64,000 nt of DNA from Bacteroidales bacterium (GTDB taxonomy: Bacteria > Bacteroidota > Bacteroidia > Bacteroidales > GCA-2748055). Location: contig JARGFM010000003.1 of the NCBI GenBank assembly GCA_029210725.1, positions 1-64,000 of the forward strand, read 5' to 3'. The notes below the pieces were generated by a model. The model made no database searches. It saw only the letters and a program-made list of their open reading frames with translations, and was not told the origin of the DNA. Below are positions 54,900 through 60,346 of this stretch, piece after piece (positions within the stretch are counted from its first letter, which is position 1; every line of letters starts with the position of its first letter). The translations under genes and the position numbers were made by a program.

Positions 54900-55580
54900 A
54901 TGGCTGTGCTGCTGGCCTCCCTGGCTCCTGTCTTCATCATACTGTTCTATATCTACTTCCGGGATAAATATGATAAGGAACCTTTCGGCCTGCTTCTGAA
55001 AGCTCTGTTAATGGGGGTGGTCATTGTGGTTCCTGTGATTTTTATGGAGCGTTTTCTGATGATCTTTTCCCCTCAGACGGGACAAGTGGAAAATGCGGCA
55101 TATCAGGCCTTTGTCGTGGCCGGCTTTACCGAGGAGTTGTTCAAGTTCCTGGGCCTCTGCCTGCTGGTGTGGAAGAGTTCCAGCTTCAACGAGCAGTTCG
55201 ACGGGATTGTCTATGCGGTTTTTGTATCCCTGGGTTTTGCCGGGGTGGAGAATGTGCTGTATGTGAGCGATGGCGGAATGGAGACAGCCCTTATCAGAGC
55301 CATTACAGCAGTTCCGGCACATGCAATTTTTGGAGTGACCATGGGCTATTACCTGGGAATTGCTCATATGTATAAAGAGCTGAGGAGCAGATACCTGGCC
55401 AGGGCCCTGCTGGTCCCCGTCGTTTTGCACGGGATTTACGATTTTATACTGATGGTGGAAGTCGGCTGGCTGCTTTTGTTTTTTATCCCTTACGTTTTTA
55501 TGCTCTACTTCATGGCAGCCAGGAAGATGAAGCGCCTCTCCGACTCCTCGATCTTCCGGCCCATGGAAGGGGATGAGTAG
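54900..55580 (+). CDS. PrsW-family intramembrane metalloprotease
   Basis: 226 residues with about seven or eight membrane helices. The PrsW signatures are present: an EExxK-type motif in FTEELFKFLGLCLLVW near 78-93, GFAGVENVLYVSDGG near 114, AHAIFGVTMGYYLG near 140 and VVLHGIYDFILM near 172. The glutamates and histidines fit the CAAX-protease/PrsW metal site. In Bacillus PrsW cleaves anti-sigma factor RsiW; here neither an anti-sigma factor nor a sigma factor is adjacent, so the target is unknown. It starts 2 bases after the exported-protein gene. Confidence 0.88.
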   Translation: MAVLLASLAPVFIILFYIYFRDKYDKEPFGLLLKALLMGVVIVVPVIFMERFLMIFSPQTGQVENAAYQAFVVAGFTEELFKFLGLCLLVWKSSSFNEQFDGIVYAVFVSLGFAGVENVLYVSDGGMETALIRAITAVPAHAIFGVTMGYYLGIAHMYKELRSRYLARALLVPVVLHGIYDFILMVEVGWLLLFFIPYVFMLYFMAARKMKRLSDSSIFRPMEGDE

Positions 55581-55666: not shown

Positions 55667-56716
55667 ATGTACGATTCAATCATACCAACAGCGGATACCA
55701 TACCGGTTCACTGGCTATGGTTTCAGGTCTTGCTTATTCTTACCTTCTTTGTCCATATGATCCTGATGAATTTTCTTCTGGGAGGGAGCCTGCTTACTGT
55801 ATGGGATTTGCTTACCGGGAAATTGGAGAAGAGGACTCCGGGAAGCATCCCCACCCTGGTGGCGTTGACCGTTAATTTCGGTGTGCCGCCCTTGCTCTTT
55901 GTCCAGGTTCTTTACGGGCATTTCTTTTACTCCAGTTCGGTCATGCTGGCGGTTCCCTGGATCCTGGTGATTCCCATACTGATACTGGCTTACTACGGGG
56001 CGTATCTGTTCGTTAGAAAAGTCGATAAAGCCCCTGTTTTATCCAGGGGGGCGCTGATTTTCACCTCCATTTCCCTGCTCTATATTGCTTTTATCCTTGT
56101 AAACAACAACACACTGGCCATGGTGCCCGACCGGTGGGGCATCTATTTTAAGGATCCGGGTGGATGGAACCTTAACCTGGGTGAACCCACCCTCTGGTCC
56201 AGGTACCTGCACTTCCTGTTGGCGGCACTGGCCATAGGAGCCCTGGGCCGGGCCATCCTTTACCGTTACTCCAAAATCGATAAGAAGGAGCAGGAGGGCC
56301 AGATCAGGCGAAATCTGAAACTGTTTGGATGGATCACTGTGATCCAGTTCGCCATTGGAAGCTGGTTCTGGCTGGCCATGCCCGAGGCGGTCTGGAAGAC
56401 CTTTATGGGGGGGAGTTTTTTCGCAACCTTTATGATGGTAAGCGGCTGGTTGCTGGCTCTGCTGATTCTGCACAGTGCATTTACCGGAAGGCTGACAGCG
56501 GCCATGATTCTGGGCGGACTGGAAGTACTGGTGATGGTTATTATCAGGGACCTGGCCCGTGCAGCCTATTTAAAGGAAAATTTCCATCCCTCGCAACTGG
56601 AGAACGTACATGAATTGTCCCCCTTGATTGTTTTCCTTCTGGTATTTGTGCTTGGCCTCCTGGCCCTATCCTATATGATCCGTCTTATGTTCACCTCTAA
56701 AACGTCCAAATCATGA
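55667..56716 (+). CDS. Cytochrome bd (CydA)-like membrane subunit without c-type haem
   Basis: 349 residues with about eight or nine membrane helices. No CXXCH is present. By hand alignment it resembles the first helices of CydA. His30 in LILTFFVHMILMNFLLGG is placed like CydA His19 (haem b595/d side). His182 in LWSRYLHFLLAALAIGALG is placed like His186 (haem b558). Asn-rich FILVNNNTLAMVPDRW near 142 matches the ILVANGWMQNP loop. The CydA glutamates Glu99/Glu107 have no equivalent. Its stop overlaps the next gene by ATGA, and that gene encodes a related protein, so the two likely form a heterodimer in the inner membrane. Confidence 0.7.
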   Translation: MYDSIIPTADTIPVHWLWFQVLLILTFFVHMILMNFLLGGSLLTVWDLLTGKLEKRTPGSIPTLVALTVNFGVPPLLFVQVLYGHFFYSSSVMLAVPWILVIPILILAYYGAYLFVRKVDKAPVLSRGALIFTSISLLYIAFILVNNNTLAMVPDRWGIYFKDPGGWNLNLGEPTLWSRYLHFLLAALAIGALGRAILYRYSKIDKKEQEGQIRRNLKLFGWITVIQFAIGSWFWLAMPEAVWKTFMGGSFFATFMMVSGWLLALLILHSAFTGRLTAAMILGGLEVLVMVIIRDLARAAYLKENFHPSQLENVHELSPLIVFLLVFVLGLLALSYMIRLMFTSKTSKS

Positions 56717-59364
56717 ACTATCCGGTCTGGTATCTTCCCCAGTTGGGAGGAGGATTGCTAATTGCAATCATCGCGATACTGCATGTTGTTATTGCGCACC
56801 TGGCCGTGGGAGGGGGCCTCTTTCTCGTGCTCACCGAACGAAAGGCAGTTAAGACAAAAAACAGTGCATTGCTTGAATATGTAAGAAAACATACCTGGTT
56901 CTTCCTGCTGCTGACCATGGTTTTTGGAGGGATGAGCGGTGTGGGTATCTGGTTTATTATATCCCTGGTGAATCCGGCAGCCACTTCGAGCCTTATTCAC
57001 ACCTTTGTGTTCGGATGGGCCATTGAATGGGTCTTTTTTATCGGGGAGATCGTGGCCCTGCTGATCTATCATTACCGCTTCGGTAAAATGGATTCAAAAT
57101 CACATATGATCCTGGGCTGGCTTTATTTCATCTTTGCCTGGTTAAGCCTCGTTGTCATTAACGGGATCCTGGGATTTATGCTGACTCCCGGAAAATGGAT
57201 CGAAACCGGATCCTTCTGGCACGGCTTTTTTAATCCCAGTTATCTGCCCTCGCTCTTATTCAGGACCTCCATATCCCTGATTTTCGCAGGGGTCTTCGGA
57301 CTGGTCACCGGGGCCCGGCTGAAGAACAAAGAAATGCGGCGGACCGTTTTTCGCCTCTGCGCCCGTTGGATGTATATTCCCTTGCTGGTCCTGGTGCTTA
57401 CAGGAATTTATTATACCCGGGTAATCCCTGCCGAATCCTTTGAAAACCTCTTTCATTTTAACCGGGAAAGCACCCCTTTTATCACCCTGATCATTGTAAG
57501 CTCCATCCTGCTTTTTGGATTGGGCCTCTTTACCCTGGTTAATTCTTCACAGGCCACTCAGAAGGCCGGGGCCCTGGTCCTGGTGGTAATCTGTTTTGGC
57601 TGGATGTCAGGATTCGAATATATGCGTGAGATCGCCCGGAAACCTTTTGTGCTTTATGGTCATATGTACTCCACCGGGATTACCCTGTCACAGATGGATT
57701 CCGTAAATAGCGAGGGTTTCCTTAAACTGGCGAAATGGACCGGGGTAAAGGAGCTTAACGAAGAAAATTTGCTGGAGGCGGGTGCAGAGATTTTCAGGCT
57801 GCAATGTATGGCCTGTCACACCCTGGATGGATACAATGGCATATTGAATAAGTCGGATCGCCTGACCGAGCGCGGACTGGAAGCCCTGCTGACGGGTATG
57901 GGCAAGGTAAATTCCTATATGCCACCTTTTGCCGGAACCGGGCCGGAGAAGAAAGCCCTGGCAGCCTATATTTACAGGGAGCTTCAGGGGAAGACCACCC
58001 AGAAAGAGGTGGCCAGTGAAGCGCCGGACCTGCCCCTGGAGATTCTGCCTTTCGATCCCGATACCAGCGACTATGTTTTGCTGGTCTGGAACGACCTGGG
58101 GATGCACTGCATTTCCGATAATGAAAAGTATTTCTCCTTCCTTCCGCCTGCCAATACGCTGAATGCACAGCTTTTCAAAAGGGGGCCTCTCCCGGAGCTC
58201 GTTAAAACGGGTGTGACGATAGAATATGCGGTCGAGGAAGGCTATGAGCATCCGGAATATCACTCCATGTTCTGGGAATACGATGAGGCGATTTTCGGAA
58301 CGGATCTTCCCGAGGGAACAGGCCTGATGGGCAAGGGCGTAAACGGGACCATGGAGCTGCAGGGCGCTGTTTATGCCGCACAGCTGATCCCTGTATTACC
58401 CTACAGGGATGACAAGACCTATAATCCCTATCCGCTCTTTACCATCAGGGCCTTTAGTGAATCCACCGGTGAGATGCTGGCCTATACCAAAGTTGTGGCC
58501 CCCACTTCCAACGAGATGGGCTGCCGGAACTGTCATGAAGGACTCTGGGCCTGGAACGAGGTCTCGGGAATGGCCGATCTGACAGCCATCAATATTCTGG
58601 AGGTTCATGACCGTTATAACGGGACCACCCTGCTGGCTGATGCTGAACAGGGCAAACCCAGGCTTTGCCAGTCGTGCCATGCCGATCCGGCAGTGATGGC
58701 TCCCGGCAGGCCGGGGGTACTGAACTTCTCCACGGCCATGCACGGTTTCCATGCGAACTACCTGTCGGGGATGGACCAGGAGGCCTGTAACCTGTGTCAC
58801 CCGAGTCATCCTGAGGGCAACACCAATTGTTTCCGGGGCAGGCACAGTGATGTGGGAGTCACCTGTACCATATGTCACGGGACCCTGGAGGATCATGCCC
58901 TGAGCCTGCTGGCCGCTCAGCCTGATATGGAGGCTTCAGAACGGCTGGCAAGGCAACTGGAGCCGGTGTTTGTTAGGTCCCGGGAGGAGATCAAACCCAG
59001 GATGCCCTGGGTGATGGAACCCGATTGCCGTTCGTGCCATACCAATTTTAATATTTTCGGGGATGGTTTTGATGGAACGGCATTTAATCGCTGGGTTCCC
59101 GCTTTTGAAGCTCTTTACCGCAACCGGACCGATAATCACGGGGTGATGTGCTCGGCCTGTCACGGATCGACCCATGCCGTATACGGGGCCTACAACAAAT
59201 ACGGATTACACCGTGATAACCAGCAGCCGCTGCAATACCAGGGCCTGGCCGGCACCATTGGCACCCATGGACAGTGTATGGTTTGCCATACCGTGGAGAT
59301 GGAATTTAATGGTCATCACCGGAATATGGTGAACAGAGAACTGCCTGCGATGTTAGTAGAGTAA
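56713..59364 (+). CDS. CydA-like membrane protein fused to an eight-haem cytochrome c region
   Basis: 883 residues. The first 320 or so are about eight membrane helices resembling CydA: His24 in AIIAILHVVIAHLAVGGGLF aligns with CydA His19, and Glu105/Glu112 in WAIEWVFFIGEIVA with Glu99/Glu107. The His186 equivalent is Arg184 (SLLFRTSIS). A monohaem cytochrome c domain follows (CMACH near 365), then a domain with VWNDLGMHC near 457, known from multihaem cytochromes. Seven further CXXCH motifs lie near 604, 652, 692, 718, 772, 813 and 855. The c-type region should face the periplasm. It probably takes electrons from quinol to a periplasmic or extracellular acceptor, or from cytochrome c to oxygen; direction is not known. 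Confidence 0.8.
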   Translation: MNYPVWYLPQLGGGLLIAIIAILHVVIAHLAVGGGLFLVLTERKAVKTKNSALLEYVRKHTWFFLLLTMVFGGMSGVGIWFIISLVNPAATSSLIHTFVFGWAIEWVFFIGEIVALLIYHYRFGKMDSKSHMILGWLYFIFAWLSLVVINGILGFMLTPGKWIETGSFWHGFFNPSYLPSLLFRTSISLIFAGVFGLVTGARLKNKEMRRTVFRLCARWMYIPLLVLVLTGIYYTRVIPAESFENLFHFNRESTPFITLIIVSSILLFGLGLFTLVNSSQATQKAGALVLVVICFGWMSGFEYMREIARKPFVLYGHMYSTGITLSQMDSVNSEGFLKLAKWTGVKELNEENLLEAGAEIFRLQCMACHTLDGYNGILNKSDRLTERGLEALLTGMGKVNSYMPPFAGTGPEKKALAAYIYRELQGKTTQKEVASEAPDLPLEILPFDPDTSDYVLLVWNDLGMHCISDNEKYFSFLPPANTLNAQLFKRGPLPELVKTGVTIEYAVEEGYEHPEYHSMFWEYDEAIFGTDLPEGTGLMGKGVNGTMELQGAVYAAQLIPVLPYRDDKTYNPYPLFTIRAFSESTGEMLAYTKVVAPTSNEMGCRNCHEGLWAWNEVSGMADLTAINILEVHDRYNGTTLLADAEQGKPRLCQSCHADPAVMAPGRPGVLNFSTAMHGFHANYLSGMDQEACNLCHPSHPEGNTNCFRGRHSDVGVTCTICHGTLEDHALSLLAAQPDMEASERLARQLEPVFVRSREEIKPRMPWVMEPDCRSCHTNFNIFGDGFDGTAFNRWVPAFEALYRNRTDNHGVMCSACHGSTHAVYGAYNKYGLHRDNQQPLQYQGLAGTIGTHGQCMVCHTVEMEFNGHHRNMVNRELPAMLVE

Positions 59365-59368
59365 GGAA

Positions 59369-60346
59369 ATGAAGAATAAGATCCGATACGGAATTTCGTG
59401 CAGTATAATCCTGGGTGGAATACTCTTCTCTGGCTGCCGGGCAAAAGAGGAGGTTTTTCCCGTAGGGGAATTCCTTCCTGAAAGCGACCGCTTCTGGGAA
59501 GTGGTGCCCCGGGGGGCCGTGGTGGAGCGCATTGGAATTAACTTTGAATTTACAGAAGGACCTGCCTGGCACCCCGGCGGATTCCTGGTATTCTCGGATA
59601 TTCCCGGAAACACCATCTATCAGTGGACCGGCAAAAAGTTCCTGGTCTACCGGGACTCGTCCAATCAGGCCAATGGCCTGCTTTTTATGACCGGGGGTGA
59701 CCTGCTGGCCTGTGAGCACGGGTCGAGGAGCATCACCCGTTACTCACCCTCCGGAAAGTTAAGCACCCTGGTGGATTCTTACCAGGGTAAGAGACTGAAC
59801 AGCCCCAATGATCTTTGCCGTTCATTATCCGGATCCATCTATTTCACCGATCCGCCCTGGGGGCTGGCCGGGCTGAACGATGATCCGGAGAAGGAGATCG
59901 GCTTTAACGGGGTCTACCGGTGGAAGAATGGGGCCATGACCCTGATCGACAGCACGCTCTCATGGCCCAATGGCATTGCCCTTTCGCCCGGTGAAAACTA
60001 TCTCTATGTGGCGAATATGGAGATCCTCCGGGAGCATGGAGAGGAGCATTACGATGTGTTCTGGATGCGATACACGCTGAATGAAAATGGGGATGCGGCC
60101 GACAGGAAGATCTTTTTCAGGGCTACCGATACCACCCTTCCGGGCGGACCGGACGGGATGACCGTGGATAGTGAGGGAAATCTCTTTGTTTCCGGTCCGG
60201 GCGGGATCCTGGTCCTGGATAGTTCAGGGACCCATCTGGGAACCCTATCCCTGCCGGTCCCGGCCACCAACCTGTGCTTTGGGCCCAGGGAGAAAGAGCT
60301 TTTTATTACGGCCAGGTCCACCGTATACCGGGTAAAGATGGAGTAA
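59369..60346 (+). CDS. SMP-30/gluconolactonase-like lipoprotein
   Basis: 325 residues. The signal peptide ends in the lipobox FSGC (Cys22), so it is predicted to be a lipoprotein. The rest is a six-bladed beta-propeller of the SMP-30/gluconolaconase/LRE family: FEFTEGPAWHPGGFLVFSDI near 51-70 with the metal glutamate, NSPNDLCRSLSGSIYFTDPP near 148-167, SWPNGIALSPGENYLYVANM near 198-217 and GGPDGMTVDSEGNLFVSGPG near 258-277. Members hydrolyse sugar lactones with a divalent metal. It begins 4 bases after the haem-rich cytochrome gene and 3 bases before zwf. Confidence 0.9.
   Translation: MKNKIRYGISCSIILGGILFSGCRAKEEVFPVGEFLPESDRFWEVVPRGAVVERIGINFEFTEGPAWHPGGFLVFSDIPGNTIYQWTGKKFLVYRDSSNQANGLLFMTGGDLLACEHGSRSITRYSPSGKLSTLVDSYQGKRLNSPNDLCRSLSGSIYFTDPPWGLAGLNDDPEKEIGFNGVYRWKNGAMTLIDSTLSWPNGIALSPGENYLYVANMEILREHGEEHYDVFWMRYTLNENGDAADRKIFFRATDTTLPGGPDGMTVDSEGNLFVSGPGGILVLDSSGTHLGTLSLPVPATNLCFGPREKELFITARSTVYRVKME

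Follow-up and report, generated by a model that had tools for sequence, protein, structure and literature searches.

At positions 55667 to 59364 of the window, by which we mean the whole stretch of 64,000 nucleotides analysed (Bacteroidales bacterium, contig JARGFM010000003.1), two genes encode membrane proteins that resemble CydA of cytochrome bd, and one of them is extended by eight haem c motifs. The locus raises the question of what reaction such a pair carries out, and in which direction its electrons flow. The first gene, P1 (55667..56716, + strand, as are all features below), encodes a CydA′ paralogue of 349 aa with nine predicted transmembrane (TM) helices, assigned from its ORF, model, fold and homology to P2. 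The second, P2 (56713..59364), encodes 883 aa that comprise a CydA-like membrane domain, a mono-haem c domain, a beta domain and a heptahaem module (ORF, Pfam and model). An earlier note on this sequence had described the two genes as overlapping, and the ORF list indeed gives reading frames that share 4 nt. The note had also suggested a survey of genomes for co-occurrence of the two genes. The best 78 loci of a scan of genome contigs were used; of the loci considered, L042–L046 and L049 are the same contigs as six of L013–L021, and L138 and L023 are from the same organism as L062. Among the matches listed, 35/37 loci have P1 immediately 5′ of P2, the remaining two contigs beginning within P2, and P1–P2 is a conserved two-gene module found under about ten phylum-level labels. 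One host of the pair, Draconibacterium orientale (L048), is in culture. A larger operon was rejected, as the broadest other neighbour cluster, a PsiE-type small membrane protein (Pfam assignment from L054), covers only 6/37 loci; the further clusters are three genus-level genes and one loosely similar group, each in 4 loci.

Both chains had been called CydA-like, and the structural models bear this out. The AlphaFold model of P2 (mean pLDDT 87.2) matches CydA chains at Z 28.1–30.0; against 7ose_A, residues 7–321 of the model superimpose on residues 2–461 of the chain (Z 30.0, rmsd 3.0 over 309 residues), which delimits a membrane domain of residues 1–321 (56713..57675) with eight TM helices and the CydA fold. 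The P1 model (mean pLDDT 90.2) has nine long helices and matches CydA chains at Z 23.9–26.1. For the two models, NrfD/PsrC/ActC-F folds are listed at Z 14.3–17.6 compared with 23.9–30.0 for CydA. The profile search that the note had proposed places P2 in Pfam family PF01654, Cyt_bd_oxida_I (E 3.5e-8, 32.9 bits, cut-off 26.2), and profile–profile comparison (hhalign) aligns the P2 family with 11 canonical CydAs (E 4.6e-12, probability 97.6%), the control of 12 CydBs giving E 0.0041 and 8.3%. For P1, comparison with Pfam and NCBIfam gave no match at E values up to 1, and a search against PDB sequences returned nothing informative. The P1 family aligns weakly with the canonical CydAs (E 1.5e-4, probability only 51%; 0.8% for the C-terminal segment of P1) and strongly with the P2 family (E 6.3e-11, 97.1%), and these profiles support the view that P1 and P2 are paralogues of each other. 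That P1 might be a CydB was rejected: the CydB control reached E 0.007 and 5.5%, and PF02322 is not matched, although the Foldseek rows for P1 mix CydA and CydB chains beneath a first row of 9r2g_D.

Which chain could hold an oxygen-reducing site? His19, Glu99, Glu107 and Glu445 (E. coli numbering) are what we take to be the ligands of the two active-site haems of CydA, and His186 and Met393 are presumably the ligand pair of its haem b558. In P2, H24 (56782..56784), E105 (57025..57027) and E112 (57046..57048) occupy the His19, Glu99 and Glu107 columns, each in 44/44 rows, and pair with H21, E101 and E108 of 5doq, respectively; in the CydA profile alignment the His186 column holds R184 (57262..57264), an arginine in 44/44 rows, and the third-haem ligand is absent. 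These four assignments agree with those of the earlier note, which had overlooked E306 (57628..57630), in the motif REIARKP at the Glu445 column. E306 and R309 pair with E378 and R381 of Geobacillus CydA (5doq) within a second, low-scoring segment of the alignment (8.1 bits, i-E 5.1), and the C-terminal segment of P2 alone gives the same E306 pairing against canonical CydA (E 2.9e-5, probability 74%); support for its equivalence to Glu445 is thus weak in the first comparison and moderate in the second.

The conservation of these residues is close to complete. In alignment A4, H24, E105, E112 and E306 are invariant in 44/44 P2-like rows, whose haem counts run from one to eight (rows that count one organism twice, L023/L062, and never included L073–L075). 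The same two-haem set is kept in all 13 haem-c-bearing rows of another alignment, seven repeating A4 genes and six new. The single exception where haem c is present is one E105D among 38 further rows, which hold three genes twice (L160/L170, L161/L169 and L162/L168) and include three rows without the leading columns and two, L185 and L187, that are cut or split. As judged from these alignments, P2 appears to keep every ligand of the two-haem oxygen site and to lack only the third-haem histidine. By contrast with the note's picture of ligands split between the chains, the oxygen-site set lies wholly on P2; a true division of ligand loss between P1 and P2 was rejected because E306 completes the P2 set, which makes the loss less symmetrical than described. 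The part of that picture that stood is the retention of H182 by P1.

The eight CXXCH motifs of P2 begin at residues 365, 604, 652, 692, 718, 772, 813 and 855, exactly where the note had placed them, and all eight are present in 34/34 complete octahaem rows of A4, so their occurrence by chance was rejected. The first lies in a class I mono-haem cytochrome c domain (residues 349–424, 57757..57984; PF13442, with a NirS c-domain fold at Z about 6). A beta domain follows (residues about 452–600, 58066..58512), which begins WNDLGMHC, shows strands in the model and is without a Pfam match; inside the full-length model it gave no clear fold match, the best listed Z being 4.9. The remaining seven motifs (604–855) lie in a heptahaem c module (residues 600–865, 58510..59307; PF14522/PF14537), which resembles stand-alone multihaem cytochromes. 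These stand-alone relatives were tried as a clue to function and rejected, no other cluster occurring in more than 5 of 40 loci. The K/R counts of alternate loops place the c haems on the periplasmic side.

The reading we prefer, and consider rather probable, is that P1–P2 is a cytochrome-c-fed, two-paralogue oxygen reductase of the bd type, a heterodimer with a fused octahaem chain. We infer the pairing of the chains, the occupancy of the haem sites, the direction of electron flow and O2 as the substrate. P1 and P2 would form a heterodimer of CydA paralogues within the cytochrome bd superfamily, in which P2 would hold a b595/d-like two-haem site at H24, E105, E112 and E306. The eight-haem chain probably feeds electrons from outside the membrane to this site: they would pass from a donor to the heptahaem module, then to the mono-haem c domain, the two-haem site and finally O2, the covalent periplasmic haems replacing the quinol-oxidising haem b558 as the point of entry. 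P1, the CydA′ partner, may supply a scaffold and a proton path, and possibly haems of its own at H30 and H182.

Relatives with fewer haems suggest donors for this reading and also bear on a competing one. The octahaem forms are one clade (support 97/86) in a tree that has long branches beside the outgroup and was built without the tri-haem forms and the close congeners L042, L043 and L045. Among the other relatives, the number of haems c is one, or three to four; in the tri-haem group, L200–L203 were read and the others judged by frame length and repeated c-domain matches. In 11/17 distant P1-like genomes, Rieske and cytochrome b genes adjoin P1 (L026, whose contig breaks off at P1, is counted among the 11), and a P2-like gene comes next in 8/8 of those that were viewed over a longer stretch. 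Rieske and cytochrome b genes also occur in some of the mono-haem operons. On this reading, some mono-haem relatives would receive electrons from the Rieske/cytochrome b complex of their own operon, and the octahaem form from periplasmic multihaem cytochromes. One genus (L148–L150) has genes for a COX1/CoxB haem-copper oxidase in the same operon (identified by Pfam in L148 and by blastp in L149 and L150). Its P2-like chain is without CXXCH, reads FQERERTG/N in the eight key columns and has lost H24, E105, E306 and R309; haem c and the two-haem ligands disappeared together, in one event, in an operon that supplies another oxidase. Were P1 and P2 a non-catalytic electron-transfer hub, with a structural role as haem carriers in bc-type or periplasmic cytochrome complexes, the Rieske and cytochrome b genes of the relatives would be expected, and so would the survival, next to a haem-copper oxidase, of a P2-like chain that has lost its ligands and haem c. 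We nevertheless find this very improbable, as the ligands are kept wherever haem c occurs, that one E105D apart.

P1 itself poses a difficulty for the oxygen reductase reading. As the note had it, P1 keeps H30 and H182 and has no equivalents of Glu99 or Glu107; of the two-haem ligands it retains that of His19 only. H30 (55754..55756, His19 column) is present in 57/57 P1-like rows and 32/32 further rows. H182 (56210..56212, the His186/haem b558 column) is present in 37/39 near rows, the two exceptions having K and belonging to one organism, in 32/32 further rows and in 2/18 distant P1 rows. Because near P1 rows keep H182, a haem at this position that complements the loss in P2 is possible; entry of all electrons through the c haems would leave H182 without a ready explanation. 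This histidine would be at home in an enzyme working outward, in which P1, with haems at H182 and H30, oxidises menaquinol and the P2 octahaem chain passes the electrons to periplasmic or extracellular acceptors, as in CbcL/CbcBA. The distribution of H182 fits such a flow: the near rows that keep it are all of octahaem type except the mono-haem L024, it occurs in 28/28 further octahaem-linked rows, and it occurs in 0/11 distant P1s with a Rieske/cytochrome b operon; the likeness of the heptahaem part to stand-alone multihaem cytochromes suits it too. However, those 11 genomes represent few lineages, and distant P1s that have no Rieske gene (L025, L027, L032 and L101) likewise lack H182. Moreover, no Met is conserved at 90% in TM7 of near P1 rows for a b558-like haem, TM6 and TM7 are separated by 13 residues in the P1 model and by 15 in that of P2, leaving neither with an insertion of Q-loop length, and the complete ligand set of P2 would be purposeless. 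Outward flow is, in our estimate, unlikely.

The host genomes bear on whether O2 is the substrate. The genome from which the window comes encodes a cytochrome c assembly protein (PF01578); a different contig of it carries consecutive Rieske, cytochrome b and multihaem c genes, whose products could act as the donor to P2. Other oxidases are present in the majority of the 33 octahaem hosts tested (27 with CydB and 23 with COX1-family genes, PF00115 also covering NO reductases), so P1–P2 is not needed as a sole oxidase, and several octahaem hosts are labelled as sulphate-reducer-type lineages, which counts against an O2 reductase. The two-haem site might instead reduce NO, H2O2, nitrite or sulphur species, with O2 reduction secondary; the other oxidases of many hosts would agree with this, and canonical bd has been reported, in the excerpt available, as a quinol peroxidase (PMC4899803). 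Against it stand a ligand set that is that of O2-reducing CydA and the ligand loss in the operon with a haem-copper oxidase, which fits O2, and we regard such a substrate as improbable. A broader proposal, which we put forward tentatively and with more doubt than confidence, is that P1–P2 represents a kind of terminal oxidase not described before: a bd-type reductase whose periplasmic octahaem wire draws on periplasmic or extracellular multihaem networks and not on quinol. Such enzymes would have spread horizontally among anaerobic and microaerophilic lineages and be frequent in one family labelled Desulfobulbaceae/Desulfocapsa, and a relative might be the oxygen reductase still sought in cable bacteria. 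If the oxygen reductase reading is right, some bd-type enzymes are connected straight to chains of multihaem cytochromes, bacteria that trade electrons with their environment could pass them to oxygen and bypass the quinone pool, and there would be a defined candidate class, open to test, for the oxygen step in organisms such as cable bacteria, which, in the part of PMC10030654 consulted, are reported to have only CydA homologues. Our literature searches, which excluded Murali 2021 and Kjeldsen 2019, named no paper on an octahaem CydA fusion.

Compared with known systems, P1–P2 shares with canonical cytochrome bd (CydAB, the qOR group) the fold and the two-haem ligands of P2. It differs in that P2 is without the b558 histidine, neither chain has the Q-loop-length insertion, the partner of P2 is CydA-like and not CydB, and the c haems are fused to P2; identity with canonical CydAB was rejected on the absence of the b558 histidine, the Q-loop and CydB. 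CbcL of Geobacter couples a membrane b-type module to multihaem c. In the same genus, CbcB of CbcBA is listed under cytochrome b561 (PF01292) in the section consulted of PMC7726332, which also covers CbcA. The joining of a membrane b-type module to multihaem c is common to these systems and to P1–P2; in contrast to them, P1 and P2 are CydA-like, and neither matches PF01292 up to E 1.

The closest parallels lie elsewhere in the bd superfamily. OR-N and OR-C are reportedly families of the classification of Murali, Gennis and Hemp 2021, and the OR-C group, we assume, carries c-type haem. That bd variants with two CydA chains are known, as the note had stated, agrees with published work: in OR-N/CydAA′ of Nitrospira/Nitrospinota, two CydA paralogues are proposed to associate, with cytochrome c and not quinol as the likely donor (excerpts of PMC10839748 and PMC12342949). 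P1–P2 likewise consists of two CydA paralogues encoded together; by description, not sequence, it differs in its fused multihaem module, of which the excerpts make no mention. A passage of PMC13189123 sets OR-C, together with OR-N, apart from the qOR group, which binds quinol. For cable bacteria, a CydA homologue, Rieske and cytochrome b are proposed to transfer electrons to O2 (PMC11247825 and PMC10030654, in part), and these are, by description, the same three components as in the P1–Rieske–cytochrome b–P2 operons of the relatives. Taken together, these descriptions liken P1–P2 to OR-C and OR-N, and the octahaem form may already sit within OR-C.

The earlier note had proposed that two overlapping genes encode paired CydA-like membrane chains, and the pair proved to be real and strongly conserved, the main points of the note being confirmed. 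The first gene, P1 (window positions 55667–56716, + strand), is an ORF of 349 aa that overlaps the second by four bases. The second, P2 (56713–59364, + strand), is an ORF of 883 aa comprising a membrane domain (residues 1–321), a class I cytochrome c domain (residues 349–424), a beta domain (residues about 452–600), and a heptahaem region (residues 600–865), and its CXXCH motifs start at residues 365, 604, 652, 692, 718, 772, 813, and 855. Directly upstream of the pair lies a gene for a PrsW-type intramembrane protease (54900–55580), a neighbour at the genus level only; 5 bp past P2 is an SMP-30/gluconolactonase-like gene (59369–60346), whose position is kept in four genus-level loci only. The host genome (3.81 Mb, with the window on contig 3) additionally codes for ordinary CydA and CydB.

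P1 had no Pfam or NCBIfam match up to an E value of 1. In profile comparisons, the P2 family (44 rows) matched 11 canonical CydAs at E 4.6e-12 (97.6%) and the P1 family (57 rows) matched them at E 1.5e-4 (only 51%), with the two families matching each other at E 6.3e-11 (97.1%); a control of 12 CydBs gave 5.5% for P1 and 8.3% for P2. The predicted structures of P1 (pLDDT 90.2, pTM 0.87; nine long helices) and P2 (pLDDT 87.2, pTM 0.83; eight long helices ahead of the c domain) scored Z 23.9–26.1 and 28.1–30.0, respectively, against CydA chains in the second structure comparison (VIA), and NrfD-type proteins scored below CydA for both (Z 14.3–17.6). The top structural match of P2 was 7ose_A (rmsd 3.0 over 309 residues, model residues 7–321 on chain residues 2–461). 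Foldseek likewise placed CydA chains at the top for P2 (E 1.9e-6); for P1, it ranked 9r2g_D first (E 8.8e-4), with CydA and CydB chains intermixed beneath. The N-terminus and the c haems would lie on the periplasmic side, with which the loop charges agree.

We then compared the haem ligands of the two chains. On Geobacillus CydA (5doq, residue numbers counted off the printed alignment), the P2 profile paired H24, E105, and E112 with H21, E101, and E108, and E306 and R309 with E378 and R381, the latter two within a second, weakly scoring stretch (8.1 bits, i-E 5.1); when the C-terminal segment of P2 was compared by profile on its own, E306 paired in the same way (E 2.9e-5, 74%). Residues 24, 105, 112, 184, 302, 305, 306, and 309 read HEERERER in 44/44 rows of the P2 alignment and in 34 of 38 further rows, which come mostly from one family and include three genes twice; one further row reads HDERERER (E105D), and three lack the leading columns and agree in the remaining ones. 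The CydA counterparts of H24, E105, E112, and E306 are ligands of the two active-site haems, and, given E306, P2 alone would hold the whole ligand set of the two-haem site. Thus, the ligands aligned by hand in the earlier note stood, and its complementary split between the chains did not, since E306 adds to the set of P2. In P1, H30 was found in 57/57 rows and 32/32 further rows, and H182 in 37/39 near rows (the other two, both from one organism, have K), 2/18 distant rows, and 32/32 further rows. At the Glu99/Glu107 columns, P1 lacks Glu altogether, and at the Glu445 column, it shows no conserved Glu.

P1 occurs in 10 of 61 genomes, its own included: 8/18 of the genus, 1/10 others in the family, and 1/33 others in the order. 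P2 adjoins P1 in all nine loci fetched from this set. In a phylum sample, a P1-like protein was present in 21 of 395 genomes, again counting its own. Among the best 78 loci kept from a scan of genome contigs, 37 were of the octahaem type (two of them starting at P2 residues 167 and 321), 40 matched chiefly over the beta/heptahaem part, and the last (L101) combined the CydA part with a mono-haem c. P1 lies directly 5′ of P2 in 35 of the 37 octahaem loci listed, and the contigs of the remaining two start within P2. These loci are labelled Bacteroidota, Desulfobacterota, Calditrichota, KSB1, Ignavibacteria, CSSED10-310, Gemmatimonadales, Spirochaetes, 'deltaproteobacterium' (tree label Myxococcota), and 'proteobacterium'; in a Glassbacteria locus, only the part past residue 321 is visible. 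The cultured hosts among them are Draconibacterium orientale and Desulfosarcina widdelii. In the complete genome of the latter (L074, 7000–10686), P2 is in two frames and may be broken or mis-sequenced; similar splits occur at L187 and at L016, where P2 is divided into two ORFs. The full-length octahaem form was found in 7/8 Desulfobulbaceae/Desulfocapsa-labelled genomes (broken up over two contigs in one of them) but in 0/4 other genomes searched alongside. In the family of one of these genomes, 56/93 genomes matched the P2 alignment; judged from the rows, about 27 have the octahaem form, about 23 a tri-haem form, three stand-alone cytochromes only, and three (G557, G562, and G582) are unclear or single.

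The membrane pair is common to three haem-c architectures: mono-haem, three to four tandem c domains, and octahaem. Sixteen larger regions comprised 10 mono-haem, two octahaem, three without haem c, and one cut at P1. When a tree was built from the membrane part, the 34 octahaem rows grouped in a single clade (97/86; 98% of 200 bootstraps), with mono-haem rows next to it. Relatives of the heptahaem part with 7–11 CXXCH also exist on their own, which suggests that the octahaem form arose once, when an already existing cytochrome became joined to a mono-haem CydA-like protein. One family of stand-alone cytochromes, which combine a WNDLGMHC beta domain with seven or more haems (L079–L119 except L101), is spread over many phyla and has no conserved neighbours. 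Gene order is P1-P2 in octahaem loci, P2-P1 in L139, L140, L142, L146, L147, L101, and L200–L203, and P1-Rieske-cytochrome b-P2 in eight other loci. Several loci carry variants: three or four tandem mono-haem c domains on the CydA-like chain, followed by P1 (L200–L203); a 449-aa P1-like protein to which Pfam assigns a cytochrome c domain at the C-terminus (L146, 6091–7440); a tandem pair of mono-haem P2-like copies ahead of P1 (L139, 7283–9881); and a second CydA-like P2 N-terminus close to the main copy, cut by the locus end (L063, 17887–18625). A PsiE-type small membrane protein lies 5′ of P1 in six of the 37 octahaem loci listed (L054, 6424–6909, the source of the Pfam identity, and five others).

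Rieske and cytochrome b genes, identified by Pfam for two pairs and by blastp for the rest, adjoin P1 in 11 of 17 distant P1-like genomes, and P2 comes after them in 8/8 genomes with larger stretches. In the 37 octahaem loci listed, blastp of flanks of up to 8 kb, many shorter, found no ORF matching the two Rieske/cytochrome b pairs. H182 is missing in 11/11 Rieske-linked P1, in four P1 without Rieske, and in L026, whose contig stops at P1; it is found in octahaem, four tri-haem, L139, and the deepest mono-haem (L146/L147) lineages. H182 could belong to a b558-position haem that becomes dispensable where a bc complex is present, a reading with few lineages in support. In three genomes of one genus (L148–L150), the Rieske operon comes after COX1 and CoxB genes and a separate cytochrome c (COX1 by Pfam in L148 and by blastp in L149 and L150), and the P2-like chain has lost CXXCH, its key columns reading FQERERTG/N. 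Because CXXCH and ligands were lost jointly, in one event, haem c and the two-haem ligands may serve one reaction replaceable by a haem-copper oxidase, which suggests O2 reduction. The ligand-less P2-like gene in these operons (L148, 1170–10193; L149; L150), which also include P1-like, Rieske, and cytochrome b genes, may be a 'retired' bd-type chain retained beside another oxidase. CydB is present in 27 of 33 octahaem hosts examined and COX1-family genes in 23, so the octahaem module is mostly accessory. On contig 10 of the window's own genome (L155, 858–7162), Rieske, cytochrome b, and eight-CXXCH protein genes stand consecutively, with an eight-CXXCH TPR protein on the strand opposite to this row. 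The row may encode a bc-type complex with a multihaem c, a possible electron source for P2.

Taken together, the sequences point to a route in which, most likely, a periplasmic multihaem donor would pass electrons to the heptahaem module of P2, from there to the c1 haem in its mono-haem c domain, and then through the two-haem site of P2 to O2, with P1 most likely acting as its CydA′ partner. The primary classification of the bd superfamily is reportedly that of Murali, Gennis and Hemp in 2021, which may include an octahaem CydA fusion; no paper describing one was found in the literature searched. For their oxygen step, cable bacteria reportedly have no more than CydA homologues, together with Rieske and cytochrome b, and CydBSA or Cox is present in some (PMC11247825, PMC10030654); bd-like proteins are mentioned in terminal oxidase complexes of Manganitrophaceae (PMC9040806). 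The groups qOR, OR-C, and OR-N have been named (PMC13189123), and OR-N/CydAA′ has been described as bd-like reductases with two paralogues that probably use cytochrome c (PMC10839748, PMC12342949). P1/P2 likewise combine two CydA paralogues with a proposed cytochrome c-type donor, and would represent a variant within the known two-paralogue bd-type reductases, with a specific, proposed mechanism, rather than a separate kind.
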